Shown one piece after another: positions 20,785-32,946 of a stretch of 64,000 nucleotides of DNA. Source of the DNA: Bacteroides sp. (GTDB taxonomy: Bacteria > Bacteroidota > Bacteroidia > Bacteroidales > Muribaculaceae); the NCBI GenBank assembly GCA_014802015.1, contig JAAVDB010000035.1, forward strand, positions 1-64,000, in the 5' to 3' direction. The notes below the pieces were generated by a model that had not been told where the DNA came from, did not search any database, and saw nothing but the letters and a program-made list of their open reading frames with translations. The position numbers and the translations under genes were made by a program. Numbering within the stretch: the first letter of the stretch is position 1; each line of letters starts with the position of its first letter.

Positions 20785-22278
20785 TTACCCCAAAGGAAAG
20801 AGGGTTTCTACTAATCGGATTTTATCTTGGAAGGGAAGGTTGAAAATGTCTTGCTTCATCAGGTCGGAATAGATTTCCATATTCGGTCGAATGAATTTTC
20901 GGTGGCGCTTTCCATTGATAAGTGTAGAGACTTCAATATATCCTTTGGAATTTACAGAGAGGGAAAGACAGTCAATGGTTCTTCCAAATGTATCGTTGAA
21001 CGAAGAATATACATTATTCTCTTTATTATGATAACCGAATGCAATCAGATTTTCAGTTAGAGTTTTCTGAATGATGCTGCGCCATGGTTGGGTAATACCA
21101 TTTTCTGTCGCGTATCGGTTGAAATCCTTGATGGCATCTGCAACTCGGTTTATCATAGCGTTGGCATTCTTAATATCATTTTGTTTTGCGAAATCGAGTA
21201 AGTCAGCTTTTGTAATCTCGCTCGTTTTGCCTCCGATGCTCAATCTTCGTTCGATATTAGGACCGGTTCCGTTCGTGTTGAAAATGAAAGTTATATCGTA
21301 TGCCGGCGCCAGTCGCCATTTGCCGTTTTCTTCAAGAAGAAACGCGAAGTTCTTGTTATGATCGTCAGTGTTGTTGGTCATAACATTAAAAGCTAACCGG
21401 CAGAAAAGCTGCTCGATCTCTGACTCCGAAATTGAAAGTTCCCGACAGGTAGCCACGAGATCTTCGTAACTGCGAGCTTCGGGATTCATTGCTGCCAAAG
21501 TCTGCATGTGGATCTTCTTTCCGTTGACTCTGTCAAATCGTTTCGTAAGGAAATGGTTTATACCGTCAACCGGGAATAACCGACATTCTTCCATAATGAT
21601 ACCGGCAGCGACAGCCATATTGTAATAAGCTGTCTCAATTTCAGCAATCGGCATGGACTTATCACCGAATTTCAGGATATAGTAGTCAAAGCCATCAAGT
21701 CCATCGGTTTGTCCTGATCGTGTTTCCCCGGTTTCCTCATTTATGGCAATAATAGCTTTCATCTGTCTGCCACCGGCTGATGTACCAACTGCGAGAAGTG
21801 CCTGTAAAGTCAGCTCCTCATTAGTATTCAGAACTATATTATCCCTGTCTTCAAGAATTTTCAGAGATATATCGTATAGAGATTTGATGTCGATTTTTCG
21901 ATTATGGGTAAGATCATCAGCGCATGGTTCATATTCCAAAGCGCCCATTCCTCGTGTGCCTATAAACATAAGCTTATAGAGCGGAGTGACTTTATTGCGA
22001 GGAATCTTATTATCCTTCACCCATTTATCAAAGAGTGTATTACCCCACGAATCAGGCAGCGAGTCTGCGATAAATGGTGGCAAACCCTGATACAGCGGTC
22101 GCTCATCACCATAAATCGGTAAAAGAGCATTACGGTTCTTTGCAGATGACAGCAAAGGTGCTATGTCAGGAATATCGTTTAGATCAGGATTATACATAAA
22201 GTATGTCCGTCTCGTCGCTGAGTTCCAAACGAGCCGTCCGATTTCTTTTCCCCATAATTTTACCTTCAAGTAGGTCAT
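20785..22278 (-). CDS. hipA: HipA-family serine/threonine kinase toxin
   Basis: HipA N-terminal and kinase domains; catalytic NNTDDHNKNFAFL and DITF motifs intact. Confidence 0.9.
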   Translation of the reverse strand: MTYLKVKLWGKEIGRLVWNSATRRTYFMYNPDLNDIPDIAPLLSSAKNRNALLPIYGDERPLYQGLPPFIADSLPDSWGNTLFDKWVKDNKIPRNKVTPLYKLMFIGTRGMGALEYEPCADDLTHNRKIDIKSLYDISLKILEDRDNIVLNTNEELTLQALLAVGTSAGGRQMKAIIAINEETGETRSGQTDGLDGFDYYILKFGDKSMPIAEIETAYYNMAVAAGIIMEECRLFPVDGINHFLTKRFDRVNGKKIHMQTLAAMNPEARSYEDLVATCRELSISESEIEQLFCRLAFNVMTNNTDDHNKNFAFLLEENGKWRLAPAYDITFIFNTNGTGPNIERRLSIGGKTSEITKADLLDFAKQNDIKNANAMINRVADAIKDFNRYATENGITQPWRSIIQKTLTENLIAFGYHNKENNVYSSFNDTFGRTIDCLSLSVNSKGYIEVSTLINGKRHRKFIRPNMEIYSDLMKQDIFNLPFQDKIRLVETLFPLG

Positions 22279-22287
22279 AGGTCAGAG

Positions 22288-22662
22288 TTATGAGTTATGA
22301 AGTGTCTTTTTCTCTTTCATTGTTTTGATTGATGATGTAAGAAGTTTCATCAATTCCTCACAATCTTCCAAAATTGAAGCAGCCTTATAATAATCTAAAT
22401 ACGAAGCATCGCGGAGCAATTCTATCCAATAGATAGTTTCTCCAGTCTCTTTTCTTGAGATATGAAGTTTAGCTATGAAATCTGCTTCACTTTGTGCATA
22501 AAACGCCTCGGCAATATTGGCACCTATACTTGTACCGCTACGTAAAACCTGTTTTGACAATATATATTCTTTTTGTTCATCACATAAATATTTATACATC
22601 TTTATTATACGTAGTGCAAATGCTTGACTCTTATTCTTTAAAATACTCTCTTTCTGTGCCAT
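22288..22662 (-). CDS. Four-helix-bundle protein (23S rRNA intervening-sequence / S23 family)
   Basis: QVLRSGTSIGANIAEAFYAQSEADFIAKLHISRKETGETIYWIELL is diagnostic; start at MAQKES. Confidence 0.9.
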   Translation of the reverse strand: MAQKESILKNKSQAFALRIIKMYKYLCDEQKEYILSKQVLRSGTSIGANIAEAFYAQSEADFIAKLHISRKETGETIYWIELLRDASYLDYYKAASILEDCEELMKLLTSSIKTMKEKKTLHNS

Positions 22663-22713
22663 ATTTATACTTCTTTCCTGAGTATGGATATAAGTTATAA
22701 CTTCATAACTCAT
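22290..22713. repeat. 14-nt perfect inverted repeat (ATGAGTTATGAAGT 22290-22303 / ACTTCATAACTCAT 22700-22713) flanking the four-helix-bundle gene
   Basis: Read directly from the sequence. Confidence 0.9.
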
Positions 22714-22732
22714 CACTCGGACTTATAACTTC

Positions 22733-23047
22733 CTATTTCTTTTGGTGCCTTACTCGCTGAATTTTCTTGTCATTGTCATCATACATATACGGCGATTCCG
22801 GCAACTCCGGCAGCAATGACTCCCAGTTATCGCCAAGACCTATCACCCTCATTAATCTCAGTAGGGTACTGAAAGAAATGTCGGTCATATTGCCTGACTC
22901 AAACTTATAAAGAGTAGTCATACCGATTGAGGCGGCCTCGGAAACCTCTTTACGGGTCATCCTCAACCGCAACCTGTAATCGCGGAACCTCAAACCAAGA
23001 TTACGTATAACGTCCGAGGTAGTAAGTGATTTGTTTGAAAATATCAT
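22733..23047 (-). CDS. hipB: HipB-like helix-turn-helix antitoxin
   Basis: XRE-type HTH (LRMTRKEVSEAASIGMTTLYKFESGN) upstream of hipA. Confidence 0.85.
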   Translation of the reverse strand: MIFSNKSLTTSDVIRNLGLRFRDYRLRLRMTRKEVSEAASIGMTTLYKFESGNMTDISFSTLLRLMRVIGLGDNWESLLPELPESPYMYDDNDKKIQRVRHQKK

Positions 23048-23216: not shown

Positions 23217-23993
23217 TTATAATCCGAGGGTGGTGCGGAGGTCGGTGACTGCCTCGGGGATAGTGACGTTGCGTTCAAGGCACTTGATGAATAGTGATCC
23301 GATGATGGCGCCGGATGAGTTGGCGCACGCGTCGGCCATAGTAGACGGATTGGAGATGCCGAAACCGATCAGGCGCGGATGGGTGAGATGCATCGAGGCT
23401 ATGCGACGGAAATAGTCGGTCTGTTCAGGTGTGAACCGATCTTTAGTGCCGGTTGTCGATGCGGTTGACACCATGTAGATGAATCCCGAGCAATTGTCAT
23501 CGATGAGGTGTATGCGCTCGGCGCTTGTCTCGGGCGTTATGAGCATTATGAGGTCTATGCCGTATTTCTCGCACAGAGGTTTGTATTCGCTCATATACTC
23601 TGCAAACGGCAGGTCGGGAATGATGATGGCGTCAATGCCTGTCTCCTGACATCGTGCGAAGACATTTTCGATGCCGAACCGCAGGATGGGATTGAGATAA
23701 CCCATCAGGACGAAGGGCATGTCGGGAACACGTTTACGTGCTTCGGCCACCTGGTCGAAGAGGCGGGCCAGTGTCATGCCGTTGCGAAGGGCCACGGTCG
23801 AACTGTGCTGGATCACAACACCGTCGGCCATTGGGTCGGAGAACGGAACGCCGATCTCGACCATGTCGACTCCCTGACGGGCGAGCTCTTCGATGACGGG
23901 TACGGTGGAGTCAAGTGTGGGAAATCCTGCGGTGAGGAATACTGAGAGTATATCGGACGATTTGCGTGCGAAGAGTGATTGTAAACGATTCAT
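23217..23993 (-). CDS. trpA: Tryptophan synthase alpha chain
   Basis: VDMVEIGVPFSDPMADGVVIQ; operon context. Confidence 0.95.
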   Translation of the reverse strand: MNRLQSLFARKSSDILSVFLTAGFPTLDSTVPVIEELARQGVDMVEIGVPFSDPMADGVVIQHSSTVALRNGMTLARLFDQVAEARKRVPDMPFVLMGYLNPILRFGIENVFARCQETGIDAIIIPDLPFAEYMSEYKPLCEKYGIDLIMLITPETSAERIHLIDDNCSGFIYMVSTASTTGTKDRFTPEQTDYFRRIASMHLTHPRLIGFGISNPSTMADACANSSGAIIGSLFIKCLERNVTIPEAVTDLRTTLGL

Positions 23994-24026
23994 ATAGGAT
24001 GATTTTACAAGTGTGGGGATTATGGG

Positions 24027-24647
24027 TTAGAGCGCTTCCATAAAGGCTTTGACAAGCTCGGGCGATTTGCATCCGGGGCGGATCTCGAATCGGCTGTTGA
24101 TGTCTATGCCCTCCATCATCGGTAGGGATGCTGAGGCTTCGCGGATAGCCTCGGCATCATCGGGGCCTATGCCGCCACTGAGCAGGAATGGTGTCGTGAG
24201 GGGATAGTCGCGCAGGAGTGTCCAGTCAAATTTCCTGCCTGAACCACCGTGATAGGCTGTGGCTGTGTCGAAGACAAATCGGTCAACCGATCCTTCATAT
24301 TGCCGCAGTTTCTCCAGGTCGATATTTTCGCCAATGCCGATGGCCTTCATGACTTTAAGCCAAGGTTTGCGTAACTCACGGCATATTTCGGGTGACTCGT
24401 TGCCGTGAAGCTGTATGGTGGTGAGTCCGTAACGCAGCACTGTACGCATTATATGTTCGACGGGTGCGTCGACAAATACTCCGACACGTTCGATGTCATC
24501 AGGAATGTCGGACATAATGCGGGGGAGCAGGGCACAGGCATTGCGTGGGGATGGGGCATAGAATATGAAGCCCATCATGGAGGGGTGCAGATCGGTAATC
24601 TGTCGTATGGATTCAGGGTCGGAGAGCCCGCATATTTTTATAAGCAT
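24027..24647 (-). CDS. trpF: Phosphoribosylanthranilate isomerase
   Basis: IKICGL start, TIQLHGNES, LSGGIGPDDAE. Confidence 0.95.
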   Translation of the reverse strand: MLIKICGLSDPESIRQITDLHPSMMGFIFYAPSPRNACALLPRIMSDIPDDIERVGVFVDAPVEHIMRTVLRYGLTTIQLHGNESPEICRELRKPWLKVMKAIGIGENIDLEKLRQYEGSVDRFVFDTATAYHGGSGRKFDWTLLRDYPLTTPFLLSGGIGPDDAEAIREASASLPMMEGIDINSRFEIRPGCKSPELVKAFMEAL

Positions 24648-24685
24648 GGTCGGTCAGATTTTTAGTTCATAACTGATGTGAGATT

Positions 24686-25447
24686 TCATTGGGCCAGAAA
24701 CCGTGCGAGGGCATCTCCGGGATCGGACTCGCGCATGAATGTCTCGCCGATAAGAAATCCGCGATAGCCCGCATCACGCAGTCGTCTTACTTCCTGCATG
24801 GATGTCAGACCGCTCTCTGCCACTCTGACAACACTGTCGGGCAGTTCCTTGGCCACTTTAAGCGACAGAGCCGGATCGGTGTGGAATGTGGCGAGGTTAC
24901 GGTTGTTGACTCCTACCATGTCCACATGCTGACAGAATCGGTCCAGTTCGTTCATCGAGTGGAGTTCGAGCAGCACCTCAAGGCCGGCATTGTGTGCGCA
25001 ATCGGTAAACCGTTCGATCTCGTCGCGTGACAGAGCCGCCGCGATGAGCAGGATTGCATCGGCGCCGTGATGTGCGGCTTCATGTATCTGAAATTCACTG
25101 ATGATAAAATCCTTGCGCAGAAGCGGTATATCGGTGAGCGTGCGGGCCGAGACAAGATCGGTAAGCGCGCCGCCGAAATAAGGAGTGTCCGTGAGTATGG
25201 AACATGCCGAAGCTCCGGCCGAGGCGTATGACGGGATGACCTCCGACACCATAGCCATGGGATGAATGTCACCTTTGGAGGGGGATCGGCGTTTGAACTC
25301 CGCGATTATCCCTGTATCGCTCGATGCGAGAGCACGGCTCATCGAGCGGATTTTTTCACGTCCCGTGCAATCATACTGTCTGTATGCGCTCATCGCTTCA
25401 ACCTCGCGCCGCTTGTTGTCGACGATCTGTTGTAAAATATCCGGCAT
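24686..25447 (-). CDS. trpC: Indole-3-glycerol phosphate synthase
   Basis: IIAEFKRRSPSKGDI, PLLRKDFI, GVNNRNL, AESGL. Confidence 0.95.
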   Translation of the reverse strand: MPDILQQIVDNKRREVEAMSAYRQYDCTGREKIRSMSRALASSDTGIIAEFKRRSPSKGDIHPMAMVSEVIPSYASAGASACSILTDTPYFGGALTDLVSARTLTDIPLLRKDFIISEFQIHEAAHHGADAILLIAAALSRDEIERFTDCAHNAGLEVLLELHSMNELDRFCQHVDMVGVNNRNLATFHTDPALSLKVAKELPDSVVRVAESGLTSMQEVRRLRDAGYRGFLIGETFMRESDPGDALARFLAQ

Positions 25448-25450
25448 GGC

Positions 25451-26446
25451 TCAGGAGTTTAATTCAACGAACTTTCTGAACGACCCGAGCGCGGCCCCCG
25501 AGCGGATAGACTCACGGGCCTCGGCGATGGCGTCAGCGATGGATACCTGCGGGTCAAGTGTATGGATGGCAAAAGCGGAGTTGGCCACGACACAGTCGGT
25601 CTGAGCCTTGGTGGCGGTGCCTGCGAGCACGCGGTCAAATATTGCAGCGGCCTCCTCGACACTTTCGCCTCCTGACAGTGATTCCTGATCGGTGGTCTCG
25701 AAACCGAGTTCTTCGGGCAGGTAAAGCCTTTCCTCAGCAGATGAGCAGACTTTGAACGGGGATGTGAGCGAGATCTCATCATATCCGTCAAGCGAATGGA
25801 CTACCGTACAGTCGATACCTTCCTGTTGGGCGATATAGTTGTACAGACGCATAAGCTTGAGATTGTATACGCCCAGCAGCTGATAGCGGGGCATGAACGG
25901 ATTGACCAGCGGACCGAGCATATTGAAGAACGTACGCACGCCGAGCGCCTTTCTTACAGGTCCGACACTTTTGAGCGCGGGGCTGAAGAATGGGGCGTGC
26001 AGATAACACACGCCGCTGTCACTGAGCGAGCGGTCAAGTCGTGACAAGTCGGCGGTAAACTTTACGCCATGCTGTTCGAGCACGTTGGATGCGCCTGAGA
26101 TTGAACTTGCTCCGTAATTGCCGTGCTTCACGACCTTACGGCCCGTCCCCGCGACAACAAAGCATGAGGCCGTCGAGATGTTGAACGTGTTCTTGCCGTC
26201 ACCGCCCGTACCCACGATGTCGATCGCTTTGACATCGCCGAAATCTACGGGATTGCGTCGCTCAAGGATCGCGTCGCGAAATCCTGTCAGTTCATCGAGC
26301 GTAATGGCACGCATCAGATATACGGTCATGAATGCCGACAGCTGCGCGTCGTTATATCGACCGTCGGCTATGTTGAGCAGCACCTGATGAGACTCGTCAC
26401 GCGACAGGCTTTTGTGCTCGAACATTTTATATAGCAGATTTTTCAT
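25451..26446 (-). CDS. trpD: Anthranilate phosphoribosyltransferase
   Basis: DIVGTGGDGKNTFNIST, KHGNYGASS. Confidence 0.95.
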   Translation of the reverse strand: MKNLLYKMFEHKSLSRDESHQVLLNIADGRYNDAQLSAFMTVYLMRAITLDELTGFRDAILERRNPVDFGDVKAIDIVGTGGDGKNTFNISTASCFVVAGTGRKVVKHGNYGASSISGASNVLEQHGVKFTADLSRLDRSLSDSGVCYLHAPFFSPALKSVGPVRKALGVRTFFNMLGPLVNPFMPRYQLLGVYNLKLMRLYNYIAQQEGIDCTVVHSLDGYDEISLTSPFKVCSSAEERLYLPEELGFETTDQESLSGGESVEEAAAIFDRVLAGTATKAQTDCVVANSAFAIHTLDPQVSIADAIAEARESIRSGAALGSFRKFVELNS

Positions 26447-26465
26447 TTCCAGATGTTTTTTACGG

Positions 26466-27029
26466 TTAAGCCTTGATCCAGTTTTCGATTATCGTGAGTC
26501 CCTGTGGTGTCAGGATCGACTCGGGGTGAAACTGTACGCCCCGCACATCAAGCGAGCGGTGTCTCATCGCCATGATCTCACCGTCGGGACTGACGGCCGT
26601 GACTTCGAGACATTCCGGCAACCCCTCGCGATCGACGACCCATGAATGATAGCGGCCTACATCTATCTTGTCGGGCAGTCCCGCGAATATATAATCGGGT
26701 CGGGTGATGGTTATCGTTGATTTTATGCCGTGATATACCTCAGGCAGATTTCTGAGTCCGGCACCGAAACGTTCGCCGATGGCCTGATGTCCGAGACAGA
26801 TGCCAAGTATGGGTTTGCTCGTGGCATAGCGTTCGAGCAACTGCGGAAGAATGCCGGCCTCCGATGGTATGCCCGGACCGGGAGAGATGATGATTTTGTC
26901 AAAGGCATCCACCTCGTCGAGAGTGATACGGTCATTACGGCGGACTGTCGGCTCGATGCCGAGCGAACGCACCGCATGCACTATATTATATGTGAACGAA
27001 TCGTAATTATCGAGAATGAGAAGTTTCAT
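26466..27029 (-). CDS. trpG: Anthranilate synthase component II (glutamine amidotransferase)
   Basis: LLILDNYDSFTYN, GICLGHQAIGE, GVQFHPES. Confidence 0.95.
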   Translation of the reverse strand: MKLLILDNYDSFTYNIVHAVRSLGIEPTVRRNDRITLDEVDAFDKIIISPGPGIPSEAGILPQLLERYATSKPILGICLGHQAIGERFGAGLRNLPEVYHGIKSTITITRPDYIFAGLPDKIDVGRYHSWVVDREGLPECLEVTAVSPDGEIMAMRHRSLDVRGVQFHPESILTPQGLTIIENWIKA

Positions 27030-27058
27030 AGCTGTTTCGCATTTTTAGTGATGTACCA

Positions 27059-28468
27059 TCATTTGCCGAATGTTTCGGCGTAGGTGAGCGCCCGTACCAG
27101 TGCGCCGAGTTTGTTATTGGTTTCCTGTAGTTCGTTTTCAGGCACCGAGCGGGCTACGATTCCTGCCCCGGCCTGAAAATACAGGCTGTTGCCGTGACTG
27201 AGGAATGATCGGATGGTGATGGCCTGATTGAGATTGCCGTTAAATCCGATGAATCCTATACATCCGCCGTAAGTCATGCGCGAGTGCGGTTCGATCTCGT
27301 TGATGAGCTGCATGGCACGTACTTTGGGTGCACCGCTGAGAGTGCCGGCCGGAAAGGTGTTGGCAAACAGTCGGTAGACATCCGCACCCTCAGGCAACTC
27401 ACCCTTGACGCGCGACACCATGTGTATGACATGCGAATAATATTGTATCTGTTTCAGGAAGTCGATCGTCACCTTGCCTCCGCCGCGGCTCAGGTCGTTA
27501 CGCGCAAGGTCGACAAGCATGATATGCTCGGCATTCTCCTTCTCGTCATCCAGCAGAGCGCGGGCCAGTTCATGATCGAGGGCATCGTTGCCGGTACGCT
27601 TGAACGTTCCTGCAATAGGGTCGATGTAAGCGGTGTGACCCTCTACGCGCAGGTGAGTCTCGGGTGATGAGCCGAAGATGCGGAAATCGCTGAAATCGAA
27701 ATAGAACAGATAGGGGGAAGGATTGACACAGCGCAAAGCACGATAGACGTTGAACTCGTCGCCTGAGAATTTCTGGGCGAAACGCCGTGACAGGACTATC
27801 TGAAATACATCTCCGCGCATAGCGTGGCGTATGCCCCGGCGCACCATATCCTTGTATTCATCGTCGGTGACGGTGGAGGTAGGTGCAGATGTCACTGCGA
27901 ATGAATACTGTGCCACATTATTGTTATGGATTACACTGATGATCTCGTCAATCGCTGATGGCTGTCCGGGTATGGTGTGCTCGAATACCGTCATCTGATT
28001 CTTGAAGTGATTGACCCGGATGATGAATCTGTAGAGGATATATTTCATGTCCGGCACGGATGTGAAGCATGCCTCTTTGAGCTGTATGTCCACACTCTCG
28101 AAATAGCGCACCGCATCGTATGCCGTGTATCCGAACAGTCCGTTTGCCGTCCCGTCGGTGTCGCCTTCGATGTCAAATGACGCTACGTATTCCTTTAGTT
28201 CACGCACGACATCCACATCACCGGTGATGGGTATTATCCGTGTCGGTGCATCGGGATATTCGAGCCTGATAGTTTCGTTGATGACGGTGAAGCTGCCTAT
28301 CGGATCGACACCGATGTAACTTACGGAGTTTTGTGACGTGTGATAGTCTGAACTCTCAAGCAGGGCCGACTGCGGATACAGGTCGCGGATTTTAAGATAT
28401 ATTCCCACCGGAGTCTCCAGATCGGCCGGAATGATGCGTGAATTGACTTTCAGTATATGGCGTGACAT
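27059..28468 (-). CDS. trpE: Anthranilate synthase component I
   Basis: Chorismate-binding fold: FQIVLSRRFAQ, PIAGTFKRTG, LARNDLSRGG, FPAGTLSGAPKVRAM. Confidence 0.95.
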   Translation of the reverse strand: MSRHILKVNSRIIPADLETPVGIYLKIRDLYPQSALLESSDYHTSQNSVSYIGVDPIGSFTVINETIRLEYPDAPTRIIPITGDVDVVRELKEYVASFDIEGDTDGTANGLFGYTAYDAVRYFESVDIQLKEACFTSVPDMKYILYRFIIRVNHFKNQMTVFEHTIPGQPSAIDEIISVIHNNNVAQYSFAVTSAPTSTVTDDEYKDMVRRGIRHAMRGDVFQIVLSRRFAQKFSGDEFNVYRALRCVNPSPYLFYFDFSDFRIFGSSPETHLRVEGHTAYIDPIAGTFKRTGNDALDHELARALLDDEKENAEHIMLVDLARNDLSRGGGKVTIDFLKQIQYYSHVIHMVSRVKGELPEGADVYRLFANTFPAGTLSGAPKVRAMQLINEIEPHSRMTYGGCIGFIGFNGNLNQAITIRSFLSHGNSLYFQAGAGIVARSVPENELQETNNKLGALVRALTYAETFGK

Positions 28469-28500: not shown

Positions 28501-29706
28501 TCAATTCTTATCGTCTACGAGTTCGCGGATATAGGTCTGCATATCCTTGTCACCGCGTCCTGACAGGTTGATGACAACGGTGTCGTCGGGTGAGAATTTC
28601 CTTACATCGAGCACTCCCATGGCATGAGCCGATTCAAGTGCGGGGATGATGCCTTCGGTGCGTGTCAGACGCAGTGCTGCGTCCAGAGCCTGACGGTCAG
28701 TGATGGCCAGGACCTCGCTACGTCCTGACGATGCGAGATAGGAGTGCAGGGGGCCGACACCGGGATAATCGAGTCCGGCCGAGATAGAGTATGGTTCTAC
28801 GATCTGTCCGTCTTCGGTCTGCATGACCATTGTTCGCGAGCCGTGGATTATACCCTCTGTGCCGACTTTCATTGTTGCCGCGGTCATGCCTGAGTCAGTC
28901 CCGAGACCGGCGGCCTCGGCTGCGATGAGTCTAACCGAAGGCTCGTTGATGAAATGATAGAAGGCTCCTGCGGCGTTGCTTCCGCCACCGATGCAGGCTA
29001 TGACATAGTCGGGAAGTTCCGATCCAGTCTGCGAGAGAAGTTGCGAGCGTATCTCGCGCGATATTACCGACTGAAAGTAGGCTACCATCTCGGGATAGGG
29101 ATGCGGACCGACGGTCGATCCGATGACATAGAAACTGTCGGGATTGCAACACCAGAAGCGTATAGCCTCGTTGGTAGCATCCTTGAGAGTCTTGTTGCCA
29201 CTCTGTACGGCCTCGACCTTGGCGCCGAGCATACGCATACGTTCTACGTTAGGCTGCTGACGTGCGACGTCTGTGGCACCCATGAATACGATACACTCCA
29301 TCCCCATGAGGGCGCATGCGGTCGCCGTGGCCACACCGTGCTGTCCGGCACCTGTCTCAGCGATGATGCGGTGCTTGCCCATACGCTTTGCGAGCAGGAC
29401 GGATGCAAGGGCATTGTTGATCTTATGTGCACCGGTATGGTTGAGGTCTTCGCGCTTGAGATATATGTTTGTGCCGTAGTGTTGGCTCAGGCGTTCGGCC
29501 TTGTAGAGAGGAGTGGGGCGGCCGACATAGTCGTGCAGCAGCCGGTCAAGTTCGCGGTTGAAGTCGTCATCAGCCGCATATCTGTAGAATGCCTCGCGCA
29601 GACGTTCGACATTGCCGTGAAGTATCTCGGGGATATATGCACCTCCGAAGTGTCCGTAATACCCGTCTTTGTCAACGGGAAGGGTAGAGTGAAATGTATT
29701 GTTCAT
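28501..29706 (-). CDS. trpB: Tryptophan synthase beta chain
   Basis: LKREDLNHTGAHKINNA, GAGQHGVATA, CIGGGSNAAGAF. Confidence 0.97.
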   Translation of the reverse strand: MNNTFHSTLPVDKDGYYGHFGGAYIPEILHGNVERLREAFYRYAADDDFNRELDRLLHDYVGRPTPLYKAERLSQHYGTNIYLKREDLNHTGAHKINNALASVLLAKRMGKHRIIAETGAGQHGVATATACALMGMECIVFMGATDVARQQPNVERMRMLGAKVEAVQSGNKTLKDATNEAIRFWCCNPDSFYVIGSTVGPHPYPEMVAYFQSVISREIRSQLLSQTGSELPDYVIACIGGGSNAAGAFYHFINEPSVRLIAAEAAGLGTDSGMTAATMKVGTEGIIHGSRTMVMQTEDGQIVEPYSISAGLDYPGVGPLHSYLASSGRSEVLAITDRQALDAALRLTRTEGIIPALESAHAMGVLDVRKFSPDDTVVINLSGRGDKDMQTYIRELVDDKN

Positions 29707-29736: not shown

Positions 29737-29772
29737 AAAAAAAGCAAGCCACCGATTGTTTATCGATGGCTT
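29737..29772 (-). terminator. trp attenuator terminator: AAGCCAUCGA-UAAACAA-UCGGUGGCUU followed by GC and U7
   Basis: 10-bp stem fully paired in minus-strand RNA (one G-U), U-tract at 29737-29743, 30 nt before trpB ATG. Confidence 0.88.
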
Positions 29773-29843
29773 GGCGCGATATGATGTTTTGGGGATTGAT
29801 CGCGTTATAAAAAACGTAAAGATTGATATTTTTGCGACATAAC

Positions 29844-29909
29844 TCACTGCCATCGATTATTTCTACCGATGCGCCACCAATAATTGTGATTGATGAATGA
29901 GTTTGCCAT
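29844..29909 (-). CDS. trpL: trp operon leader peptide MANSFINHNYWWRIGRNNRWQ
   Basis: 22-codon ORF with tandem Trp codons (29874-29879) and a third (29850-29852), between a consensus promoter and an intrinsic terminator upstream of trpB; absent from the ORF track. Confidence 0.85.
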   Translation of the reverse strand: MANSFINHNYWWRIGRNNRWQ

Positions 29910-29927
29910 TTGGATTAAATTCTGTGA

Positions 29928-29959
29928 CAAAATTATACTTTTGCGCTGAATCTACCAAA
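29928..29959 (-). promoter_or_regulatory. trp operon promoter (TTTG-N20-TAATTTTG)
   Basis: Consensus Bacteroidetes -33/-7 with 20-nt spacing, just upstream of the leader ORF. Confidence 0.8.
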
Positions 29960-29995
29960 TATTTTATAGTAAAATTTGAATTTTACGAATAAAAT

Positions 29996-30034
29996 ACAGG
30001 CGTTGTACAGCTGTCATACTGTTACAACGCCTGT
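29996..30034 (-). terminator. Terminator of GH3 gene
   Basis: Perfect 12-bp stem acaggcgttgta/tacaacgcctgt followed by ATTTTATT on the minus strand. Confidence 0.85.
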
Positions 30035-30060: not shown

Positions 30061-32946
30061 TTATCGTGAATGAGTCAGGACAGAGTGGCGCGACACGAAG
30101 TTAAGATTTTTCCACTGAGAGGCCGGGACCTTGAAGTCGATGAATTTCGACTGGCCGGGGTTGAGTTCGTAGTGGCGGATGTCGCCGGTGCGGTTGCCGT
30201 CGACGTAGAGAGTGAGTGTGCCTGTGTCGGTCAGATTGCCGTTATTGGCCACTTCGACAGTTACCATATCGGACTCATCGGCGAGATTATGGCGCACTTC
30301 GTGAACCGTATACTTGAAATCGGCGGCAGCCGGACTTTTATAATCAAGTGTGCCGACGAGTCCGCGACCTTCAGGATAGGAGAGTGAGTCCTTGATATTG
30401 TCACGGGCTATGAAATCGGGACTCATACCACCCACCATGATCTTAAACTCACCGGGTTCGACCACACGGTCGAGGTCGACATTGAGCAGCGAGAGATCGT
30501 AGGGGGTAAGTGTGAATGTGACGGTCTTGGTCTCACCCGGATTGAGTGAAATGCGCTCGAATCCTTTGAGTTCCATCACGCGGGTTTTAACAGATGCGTA
30601 CATGTCGGTAACGTAGAGCTGTGCCACTTCGTCACCGGGACGTGCGCCGGTATTGGTCACATCGGCCTTGATCTCTACATTTCCGTCAGGGAGAGTGTTG
30701 ATCTTAAGATTGGAGTAGGAGAATGTGGTGTAGCTGAGTCCGTAACCGAAACGGTAGAGGGGATAGAACTCCATGTCGACATACTCATACCGGCGGCCGG
30801 AGGTCTTGAAGTTGTAGTTAAGGGGCAGCTGCGCGGCGCTCTGAGGGAATGTCATCGGGAGTCGACCGGCAGGATTATAGTCACCGAAGAGTACATCGGC
30901 CGTGGCGAGACCACCCTCCTGACCGGGATACCAGTTGACGAGTATAGCCTTGGTCTGGAGCGAGGCCGAGGTAAGATCGTAGGGACGGCCAACCTGTGCG
31001 ACAAGTATCACGGGTGTTCCTGTGGCACATATCATGTCGAGCAGCAGATTCTGTTTGCCCTGGAATTGCAGACCGGCGAGATCGTGGTTTTCACCTGAAG
31101 TCGGTTTTTCACCTTCGATCGAGGGGTGACCGGCATAGTCACCGAGGACCACGACGGCTACATCAGCCTTGCGTGCGGCCTCGACAGCCTCATTGAGCAT
31201 CGAGGTGTCGTCGGTGGTGAAGCCGCAACCTTTGGCGTATATAACCTTGGTCGAGGGAGAGACGGCTCCCTTGATACCATCGAGTACCGATTTAAGCTGA
31301 CCGTCGAGAGGCTTGCCCGAGTAGTCGCCGAGCTGGAGATTGTCGGCACCCGGTCCGATAACAGCGATTGAGCCGATCGACTTGGAAAGAGGGAGAATAT
31401 CATCAGTATTCTTCAGAAGCACCATTGACTGACGTGCCATCTCGCGGGCGAGTGCCACATGTTCGGGTGACTGCCATGAGGGGAACTGACGGTTCCAGTC
31501 AAGCGGTTTGCAGGGATTGTTTTCAAACAGACCCATACGGAACATTACACGGAGCATGTCGCGGCACACGTCGTCGAGAGCTTCGGTGTCGAGCTGTCCG
31601 TTGACAGCGGCAGCGATGACATCCTTATCGTTATATGTGTCACCACAGTTGGTGGCGATGCCTGCGCGCAGTGCATCGTTGGCGGCCTCGACCTTGTCGC
31701 GGGCTGTGTAGTGCTTGCGTGAGGTCATATTGGCGATAGCGCCGCAGTCACTGACGATAAATCCGTCAAATCCCCATTCGTCACGCAGGATGCCCCTGAG
31801 CAGTTCTTTACTTTTGCCGACAGGTACACCCATGTAGTCACCGTATGACATCATCACGGACTGGGGTTTGCACTCGCGGAATACTTCGCGGAACGGCACG
31901 AGGTGCACCTCGCGCATCTCGCGCTCATTAAATCCTACATCGTGGCTGTCACGTCCGCCCAGAGGCGCGCCGTGTGCTCCGAAGTGTTTGGGGGTGGTGA
32001 TCAGTCCGAGGCTCTGATAGCCGTTGACCCAGGCTTTGCCCAGTTCGGAGCAGAGATAGGGGTCTTCGCCGAAACTCTCTTCACAGCGGCCCCAGCGAGG
32101 GTCGATAGCGACGTCGAGCACCGGTGACCATGCGGCGATAGAACCTGCTTCGAGGCTCTCGCGACCGATAGCTTCTGTCACCTTATATAATAGAGGTCTG
32201 TTCCATGAGGCAGCCATGCCGAGCACCTGTGGAAACATTGTGGCTCCCGTGCCGTAGCTATAGCCGTGGATGGCCTCAACTTTCTTGATGTCGGGTATGC
32301 CGAGACGCGGCACACCGGGTATTCCCCATCCCTCACGTATGAGTTCCATCTTTTCCTCGGGAGTCATCTGTGCGAGCAGTATCTCGATGCGGCGGTCGAC
32401 AGGCAGAGAGGTGTCGAGGTAAGAACGGTCTACACCGGCTTCGTCAACAGGTGCAGCTGCGGCTGCGATGCCGACGGCAAGTTCGGCGAGCGACCAGGGA
32501 CGTGTGATGACATCGGGTTTGACAGCGATACGTACATGCGCTCCGTACTTGGCCGGGAACGTCAGGACCGTATTGCCCTTCTCAGTCGAGACGTTGAAGT
32601 CAACGGGGGTGCCGAGATTCATGGGGTCGTATGTCACATAGACCTCAAGTGCCCGCTTCAACTGCTCGGCCGAAGCTCCCTTCTGTGAGATTGTGATTGA
32701 CTGCACGTCACCCGGATTACCGATTGTGAGCATCAGCCACTGCGGATGTTTGAGTGACGAGGCGTCGAGTGTCCATACGGTAGACGGATTTCCATCAAAA
32801 GCGTATGCGACTGATTCCTGTGCGGTCGATGATGATGCTGCAATGACCGGTGACTGTACTGTGGATTGTGAGGGTTGTGTTGACTTACAATAGCCATGCG
32901 CGGAAAATGCCAACCCCAATGCCAGCGCAAAAGATGTTTTTTTCAT
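30061..32946 (-). CDS. Glycoside hydrolase family 3 (beta-glucosidase-like) with N-terminal discoidin-like domain
   Basis: WSPVLDVAIDPRWGRCEESFGEDPYL, GFDGFIVSDCGAI, C-terminal Fn3-like domain. Confidence 0.93.
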   Translation of the reverse strand: MKKTSFALALGLAFSAHGYCKSTQPSQSTVQSPVIAASSSTAQESVAYAFDGNPSTVWTLDASSLKHPQWLMLTIGNPGDVQSITISQKGASAEQLKRALEVYVTYDPMNLGTPVDFNVSTEKGNTVLTFPAKYGAHVRIAVKPDVITRPWSLAELAVGIAAAAAPVDEAGVDRSYLDTSLPVDRRIEILLAQMTPEEKMELIREGWGIPGVPRLGIPDIKKVEAIHGYSYGTGATMFPQVLGMAASWNRPLLYKVTEAIGRESLEAGSIAAWSPVLDVAIDPRWGRCEESFGEDPYLCSELGKAWVNGYQSLGLITTPKHFGAHGAPLGGRDSHDVGFNEREMREVHLVPFREVFRECKPQSVMMSYGDYMGVPVGKSKELLRGILRDEWGFDGFIVSDCGAIANMTSRKHYTARDKVEAANDALRAGIATNCGDTYNDKDVIAAAVNGQLDTEALDDVCRDMLRVMFRMGLFENNPCKPLDWNRQFPSWQSPEHVALAREMARQSMVLLKNTDDILPLSKSIGSIAVIGPGADNLQLGDYSGKPLDGQLKSVLDGIKGAVSPSTKVIYAKGCGFTTDDTSMLNEAVEAARKADVAVVVLGDYAGHPSIEGEKPTSGENHDLAGLQFQGKQNLLLDMICATGTPVILVAQVGRPYDLTSASLQTKAILVNWYPGQEGGLATADVLFGDYNPAGRLPMTFPQSAAQLPLNYNFKTSGRRYEYVDMEFYPLYRFGYGLSYTTFSYSNLKINTLPDGNVEIKADVTNTGARPGDEVAQLYVTDMYASVKTRVMELKGFERISLNPGETKTVTFTLTPYDLSLLNVDLDRVVEPGEFKIMVGGMSPDFIARDNIKDSLSYPEGRGLVGTLDYKSPAAADFKYTVHEVRHNLADESDMVTVEVANNGNLTDTGTLTLYVDGNRTGDIRHYELNPGQSKFIDFKVPASQWKNLNFVSRHSVLTHSR

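Follow-up and report, generated by a model that had tools for sequence, protein, structure and literature searches.

The trp leader of E. coli, trpL, combines tandem Trp codons with mutually exclusive 2:3 and 3:4 helices, the antiterminator making use of the 5' arm of the terminator. From the phylum Bacteroidota, the "Bacteroidete tryptophan peptide leader RNA" has been described (Weinberg et al. 2010, PMC2864571) and is deposited as RF01692 (Bacteroid-trp) in Rfam. Leader-peptide attenuation was furthermore proposed for Flavobacterium psychrophilum on the basis of structured 5' regions of amino-acid biosynthesis operons (PMC9723704); the main text of that paper lists pheA and hisG among such elements, and discusses neither trp nor Muribaculaceae. 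A published description of a Muribaculaceae trp leader was not found in a search covering mostly the literature outside subscription.

Here we analyzed the trp locus within a stretch of 64,000 nt (in the following "the window"; GCA_014802015.1, contig JAAVDB010000035.1, positions 1-64,000, forward strand) of Bacteroides sp., assigned to the Muribaculaceae by GTDB. An initial annotation of the window had proposed transcription attenuation for this operon. The conserved tandem-Trp (WW) ORF, the covarying stems, and the conserved promoter found among relatives support this reading, and we consider it very likely, with a probability of about 0.9, that a ribosome-mediated transcription attenuator controls trpBEGDCFA.

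Organization of the trp leader region

The gene order trpB-E-G-D-C-F-A, derived from ORFs and NCBIfam, agrees with the operon annotated initially, including trpB as first gene (Table 1). Directly downstream of trpA (20785-23047, minus strand), an HTH gene, a four-helix-bundle gene of the 23S rRNA-intervening-sequence type, and a HipA-like kinase gene constitute a HipBA-like toxin-antitoxin arrangement with the four-helix-bundle gene inserted. A GH3 glycosidase gene (30061-32946) lies upstream of the trp promoter. An inverted repeat between the two (gcgttgtaca / tgtacaacgc, about 29990-30034) probably is the terminator of the glycosidase gene.

Table 1. Positions of the trp operon and its leader elements in the window.
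Feature	Position	Strand	Details
Bacteroidota-type promoter	29928..29959	(-)	TTTG 29959-29956, 20-nt spacer, TAATTTTG 29935-29928
Leader ORF	29844..29909	(-)	MANSFINHNYWWRIGRNNRWQ and stop; 21 sense codons + TGA; Trp codons 11 and 12 adjacent
Segment 1	29867..29871	(-)	CATCG; able to pair with segment 2; weakly conserved
Segment 2	29849..29857	(-)	ATCGATGGC; predicted antiterminator strand
Segment 3	29762..29772	(-)	AAGCCATCGAT; terminator 5' arm; partner of segment 2 or segment 4
Segment 4	29746..29756	(-)	ATCGGTGGCTT; terminator 3' arm
U tract of intrinsic terminator	29737..29743	(-)	Seven U; independent terminator scan
trpB	28501..29706	(-)	First structural gene of controlled operon; TIGR00263 above cut-off
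trpE, trpG, trpD, trpC, trpF, trpA	23217..28468	(-)	Operon remainder; ORFs and NCBIfam

The promoter is present as annotated and fits the Bacteroidota consensus TTTG-N20-TAnnTTTG. The leader ORF with its tandem Trp codons was recovered base for base, and we infer that it is translated; translation initiation in Bacteroidota mostly proceeds without Shine-Dalgarno pairing. The sensor role falls to codons 11 and 12, since a ribosome stalled at the third Trp codon (codon 20), which sits within segment 2, would mask this segment. Relatives drop the third codon through frameshift or early stop yet keep the RNA; this codon reflects a constraint of the RNA sequence and has no part in sensing.

All four RNA segments match the annotated minus-strand positions base for base. 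The part of segment 3 at 29770-29762 (GCCATCGAT) is complementary to segment 2 (ATCGATGGC), to a degree not equaled in any of 200 shuffles. Segment 4 is followed on its 3' side by GCTTTTTTT. Likewise, the U-tailed intrinsic terminator annotated 30 nt before trpB was recovered, with the last U at 29737 and the trpB ATG at 29706. An independent scan of 551 bases returned the hairpin 29773-29745 as its sole terminator match (0.4 expected).

Conservation and covariation within the Muribaculaceae

For comparison, trpB loci were gathered from GTDB genomes and from 149 genomes of Muribaculaceae. The gene was present in 49 of these 149, suggesting that tryptophan auxotrophy is common in this gut family; the attenuator would predict Trp-controlled tryptophan synthesis in a family where about two thirds of the sampled genomes are without trpB. 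Conservation was counted over the 46 trpB loci of Muribaculaceae for which 400 bases or more of upstream sequence were available. A script scored a WW leader where an ORF of 10-45 codons, beginning with ATG, contained WW at the distance expected. This applied to 40 of the 46 loci versus 24 of 1,840 shuffled upstream sequences (1.3%), arguing against a chance occurrence of the leader. An additional WW leader, hidden from the script by an ambiguous base (L086), raised the number to 41. Among the remaining five loci, four had no WW leader (L078, L079, L091, and L092) and one a single-Trp version (L063). The conservation of the WW ORF in relatives, which had been named as a check of the initial annotation, was thereby established. 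A Muribaculaceae trp locus, with a TrpB 88% identical to that of the window, is also present in a metagenome bin labelled Paenibacillus sp. (L004, JAMPHR010000001.1), a label that is likely wrong.

The promoter is conserved upstream of the relatives' leaders as well. In the 70 nt preceding the leader ATG, a TAnnTTTG box was detected for 49 of 57 leaders, compared with 5% of shuffles, and in the same leaders TTTG or TTG usually follows 18-20 nt further upstream.

Helix statistics were calculated from an alignment of 45 sequences. Pairing was found in 85% of the cells of the 2:3 helix and in 90% of the 3:4 helix, with 29 doubly changed cells versus 12.9 in shuffles for the former and 76 versus 26 for the latter, and both pairings were lost on sliding the partner by 1-3 columns. 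The compensatory changes anticipated for both stems are hence present. Joint alterations of the strands occur in several relatives, among them segments 2, 3, and 4 in genus g3 (UGCGGCA/UGCCGUA/ACGGCA) and segments 2 and 3 of one single leader (L095, CGACGGC/GCCGUCG). Regarding the proposed 1:2 pairing, segment 1 was located at its annotated site, but this helix is weaker, with 69% of cells paired.

The distance between Trp codons and segment 2 provided a further measure. In nearly all leaders where the script located it, the segment 2 core (CGAUGG or a variant) starts 17-19 nt past WW; in L095, an earlier copy of the core was matched, which is probably irrelevant. Most leaders have the core in frame with WW; it is out of this frame in L008, L013, L014, L084, L090, and L093, and follows the stop of the leader ORF in L071, L081, L085, L089, and L096. 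Because the spacing of 17-19 nt is held in frame, out of frame, and beyond the stop, segment 2 is an RNA element and not a peptide one; the RWQ end of the window peptide is therefore conserved as RNA. With a ribosome stalled at WW, the core would be located immediately beyond the footprint, and its fixed distance from the Trp codons would imply close coupling of transcription and translation on these leaders. Features characterizing ribosome-mediated attenuators are found together at this locus, i.e., a leader ORF in which the amino acid of the pathway is encoded in tandem, an antiterminator strand just past the place where a ribosome would stall on the sensor codons, and mutually exclusive antiterminator and terminator helices with covariation.

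Proposed mechanism

Transcription of the leader is expected to start near 29922, with a ribosome translating the leader ORF. When Trp-tRNA is scarce, the ribosome would stall at Trp11/Trp12 and cover segment 1, leaving segment 2 available for pairing with the terminator 5' arm (segment 3). This pairing would prevent the terminator hairpin, and RNA polymerase would read into trpB. When Trp is ample, a ribosome at the stop codon would cover segment 2, segments 3 and 4 would form the terminator, and transcription would end before trpB. The stalling, the response to Trp, and this order of events are deduced from the sequence.

RNA folding, also suggested as a check, agreed with this scheme in part. 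When the ribosome was placed at Trp12 and the transcript extended as far as segment 3, a 2:3 helix of 9 bp was part of the minimum-energy structure; this helix was absent for a ribosome placed at the stop codon. On the full-length RNA the states are alike, the minimum-energy fold containing the terminator under every ribosome mask. As the terminator wins at equilibrium on the full-length RNA, antitermination must be kinetic; it would require trapping of the 2:3 helix, which would have to form before segment 4 is made and then persist. Also counting against the attenuation reading are the five of 46 loci without a WW leader and, in many relatives, a distance of 40-60 nt from WW to the leader stop, as a ribosome at this stop would not fully cover segment 2.

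Relation to Bacteroid-trp and alternative explanations

Rfam scans of the window returned chance matches only. The search for the proteobacterial Trp_leader (RF00513) proposed with the initial annotation gave no match to the window at E ≤ 10, and the same was true for RF01692. At its gathering cut-off of 49 bits, RF01692 was reached in none of 148 Muribaculaceae genomes. Of 247 genomes of the order, 47 matched at E ≤ 0.1 and 12 above the cut-off, and a Bacteroides control genome was matched too. The model also matches Myroides and Paludibacter loci at the equivalent place upstream of trpB, and nearly all RF01692 loci that were fetched adjoin trpB or trpE. Whether such an attenuator had been described in this lineage had been left open; the kind is known in the phylum through RF01692, while the window leader is unmatched by the model. 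We conclude from these comparisons that this kind of attenuator is already known in Bacteroidota, with a lineage-specific form in Muribaculaceae, an entire family missed by the current Rfam model.

One could still regard the leader as an ordinary RF01692 member with no difference in mechanism, given its place upstream of a trp operon of Bacteroidota, its WW leader ORF, and its U-tailed hairpin. Besides the lack of Muribaculaceae matches by a model able to recognize the control genome, the strand complemented by segment 2 renders this unlikely. Among 48 leaders of the Muribaculaceae type, segment 2 complements the 5' arm at p ≤ 0.05 in 43 and the loop/3' arm at this level in 4, whereas in RF01692-type leaders the loop/3' arm is complemented in 30 of 37 and the 5' arm in 1 of 37, the loop/3'-arm feature being derived here from these 37 leaders and not from Rfam. 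The window leader shows no significant loop/3'-arm complementarity as in the RF01692 type (p=0.19). Leaders from further families within the order were recovered independently via trpB, and every one with an assignable type belonged to the loop/3'-arm form. In another Bacteroidales family, a WWW leader and terminator precede a distant TrpB homologue of about 28% identity (L133), which suggests that a second TrpB is controlled by a trp leader there.

In a tree built from 80 TrpB sequences, the RF01692-type leaders fell within a group of 31 rows (support 100/97) containing no Muribaculaceae locus. The two 5'-arm leaders whose records bear other labels (L018 and L035) were placed among the Muribaculaceae. 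The former, with a WWW leader ahead of a Bacteroidales-type trpB, is located on a scaffold labelled as the betaproteobacterium Parasutterella excrementihominis YIT 11859 (NZ_GL883727.1) and would represent contamination or transfer. The loop/3'-arm form is likely ancestral since Flavobacteriaceae have it, an assignment depending on the root of the tree. We tend to favor, with some reservation, the view that the trp attenuator of Bacteroidota switched strand, Muribaculaceae having replaced the loop/3'-arm by a 5'-arm antiterminator while keeping Trp codons, spacing, and operon. If true, this would be a natural rewiring of a riboregulator without loss of function. The resulting natural pairs of switches, sharing their logic with opposite antiterminator strands, could be used for comparing mechanism.

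Action in trans, either of the leader peptide or of the leader RNA after its release, might instead be the main function with attenuation being secondary, as reported for the trans-acting leader peptide peTrpL of Sinorhizobium meliloti (PMC7298713). The conservation of a short ORF would suit such a role; however, the peptide is weakly kept outside WW, and its C-terminal residues are lost via frameshift or early stop in relatives while the spacing of the RNA core stays, making this explanation very improbable. Control of the terminator by a Trp-binding regulator of the TrpR or TRAP type, with an incidental ORF, would be compatible with a terminator upstream of trp genes in the case of TRAP, but can be virtually dismissed, as such a regulator does not need a fixed distance between Trp codons and segment 2, no TrpR above cut-off was found in 148 Muribaculaceae genomes, and neither TrpR nor TRAP was found in the own genome, which, being only 87% complete, is no proof of their absence.

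In respect to the reach of the ribosome-mediated attenuator, our own covariance model gave weak matches at five sites with no trp gene nearby (L164, L165, L166, L168, and L170), which resemble common intrinsic terminators downstream of other genes. The regulon is therefore not extended past the trp operon on this evidence. A search of the genome for runs of His codons led, at the places inspected, only to a long protein frame; a His leader was not found there.

Comparison with known trp leaders

With trpL of E. coli, the Muribaculaceae leader shares the tandem Trp codons, the exclusive 2:3 and 3:4 helices, and an antiterminator directed at the 5' arm. It differs in the unrelated peptide, the Bacteroidota-type promoter, the trpB-first operon, and in that no TrpR was found. 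The likeness to RF01692 comprises the occurrence in Bacteroidota upstream of a trp operon, a tandem-Trp leader ORF, a terminator hairpin with U tract, and a segment 2 that begins some 17-20 nt past the final Trp codon; RF01692 leaders mostly precede operons with trpB or trpE first and carry two or three tandem Trp codons. The two forms diverge in segment 2 itself. In the RF01692 type, a GUCGUGAG-like strand that often spans the stop of the leader matches loop and 3' arm of the terminator by complementarity (ACUCACGAC), whereas the CGAUGGC-like strand of Muribaculaceae is complementary to the terminator 5' arm.
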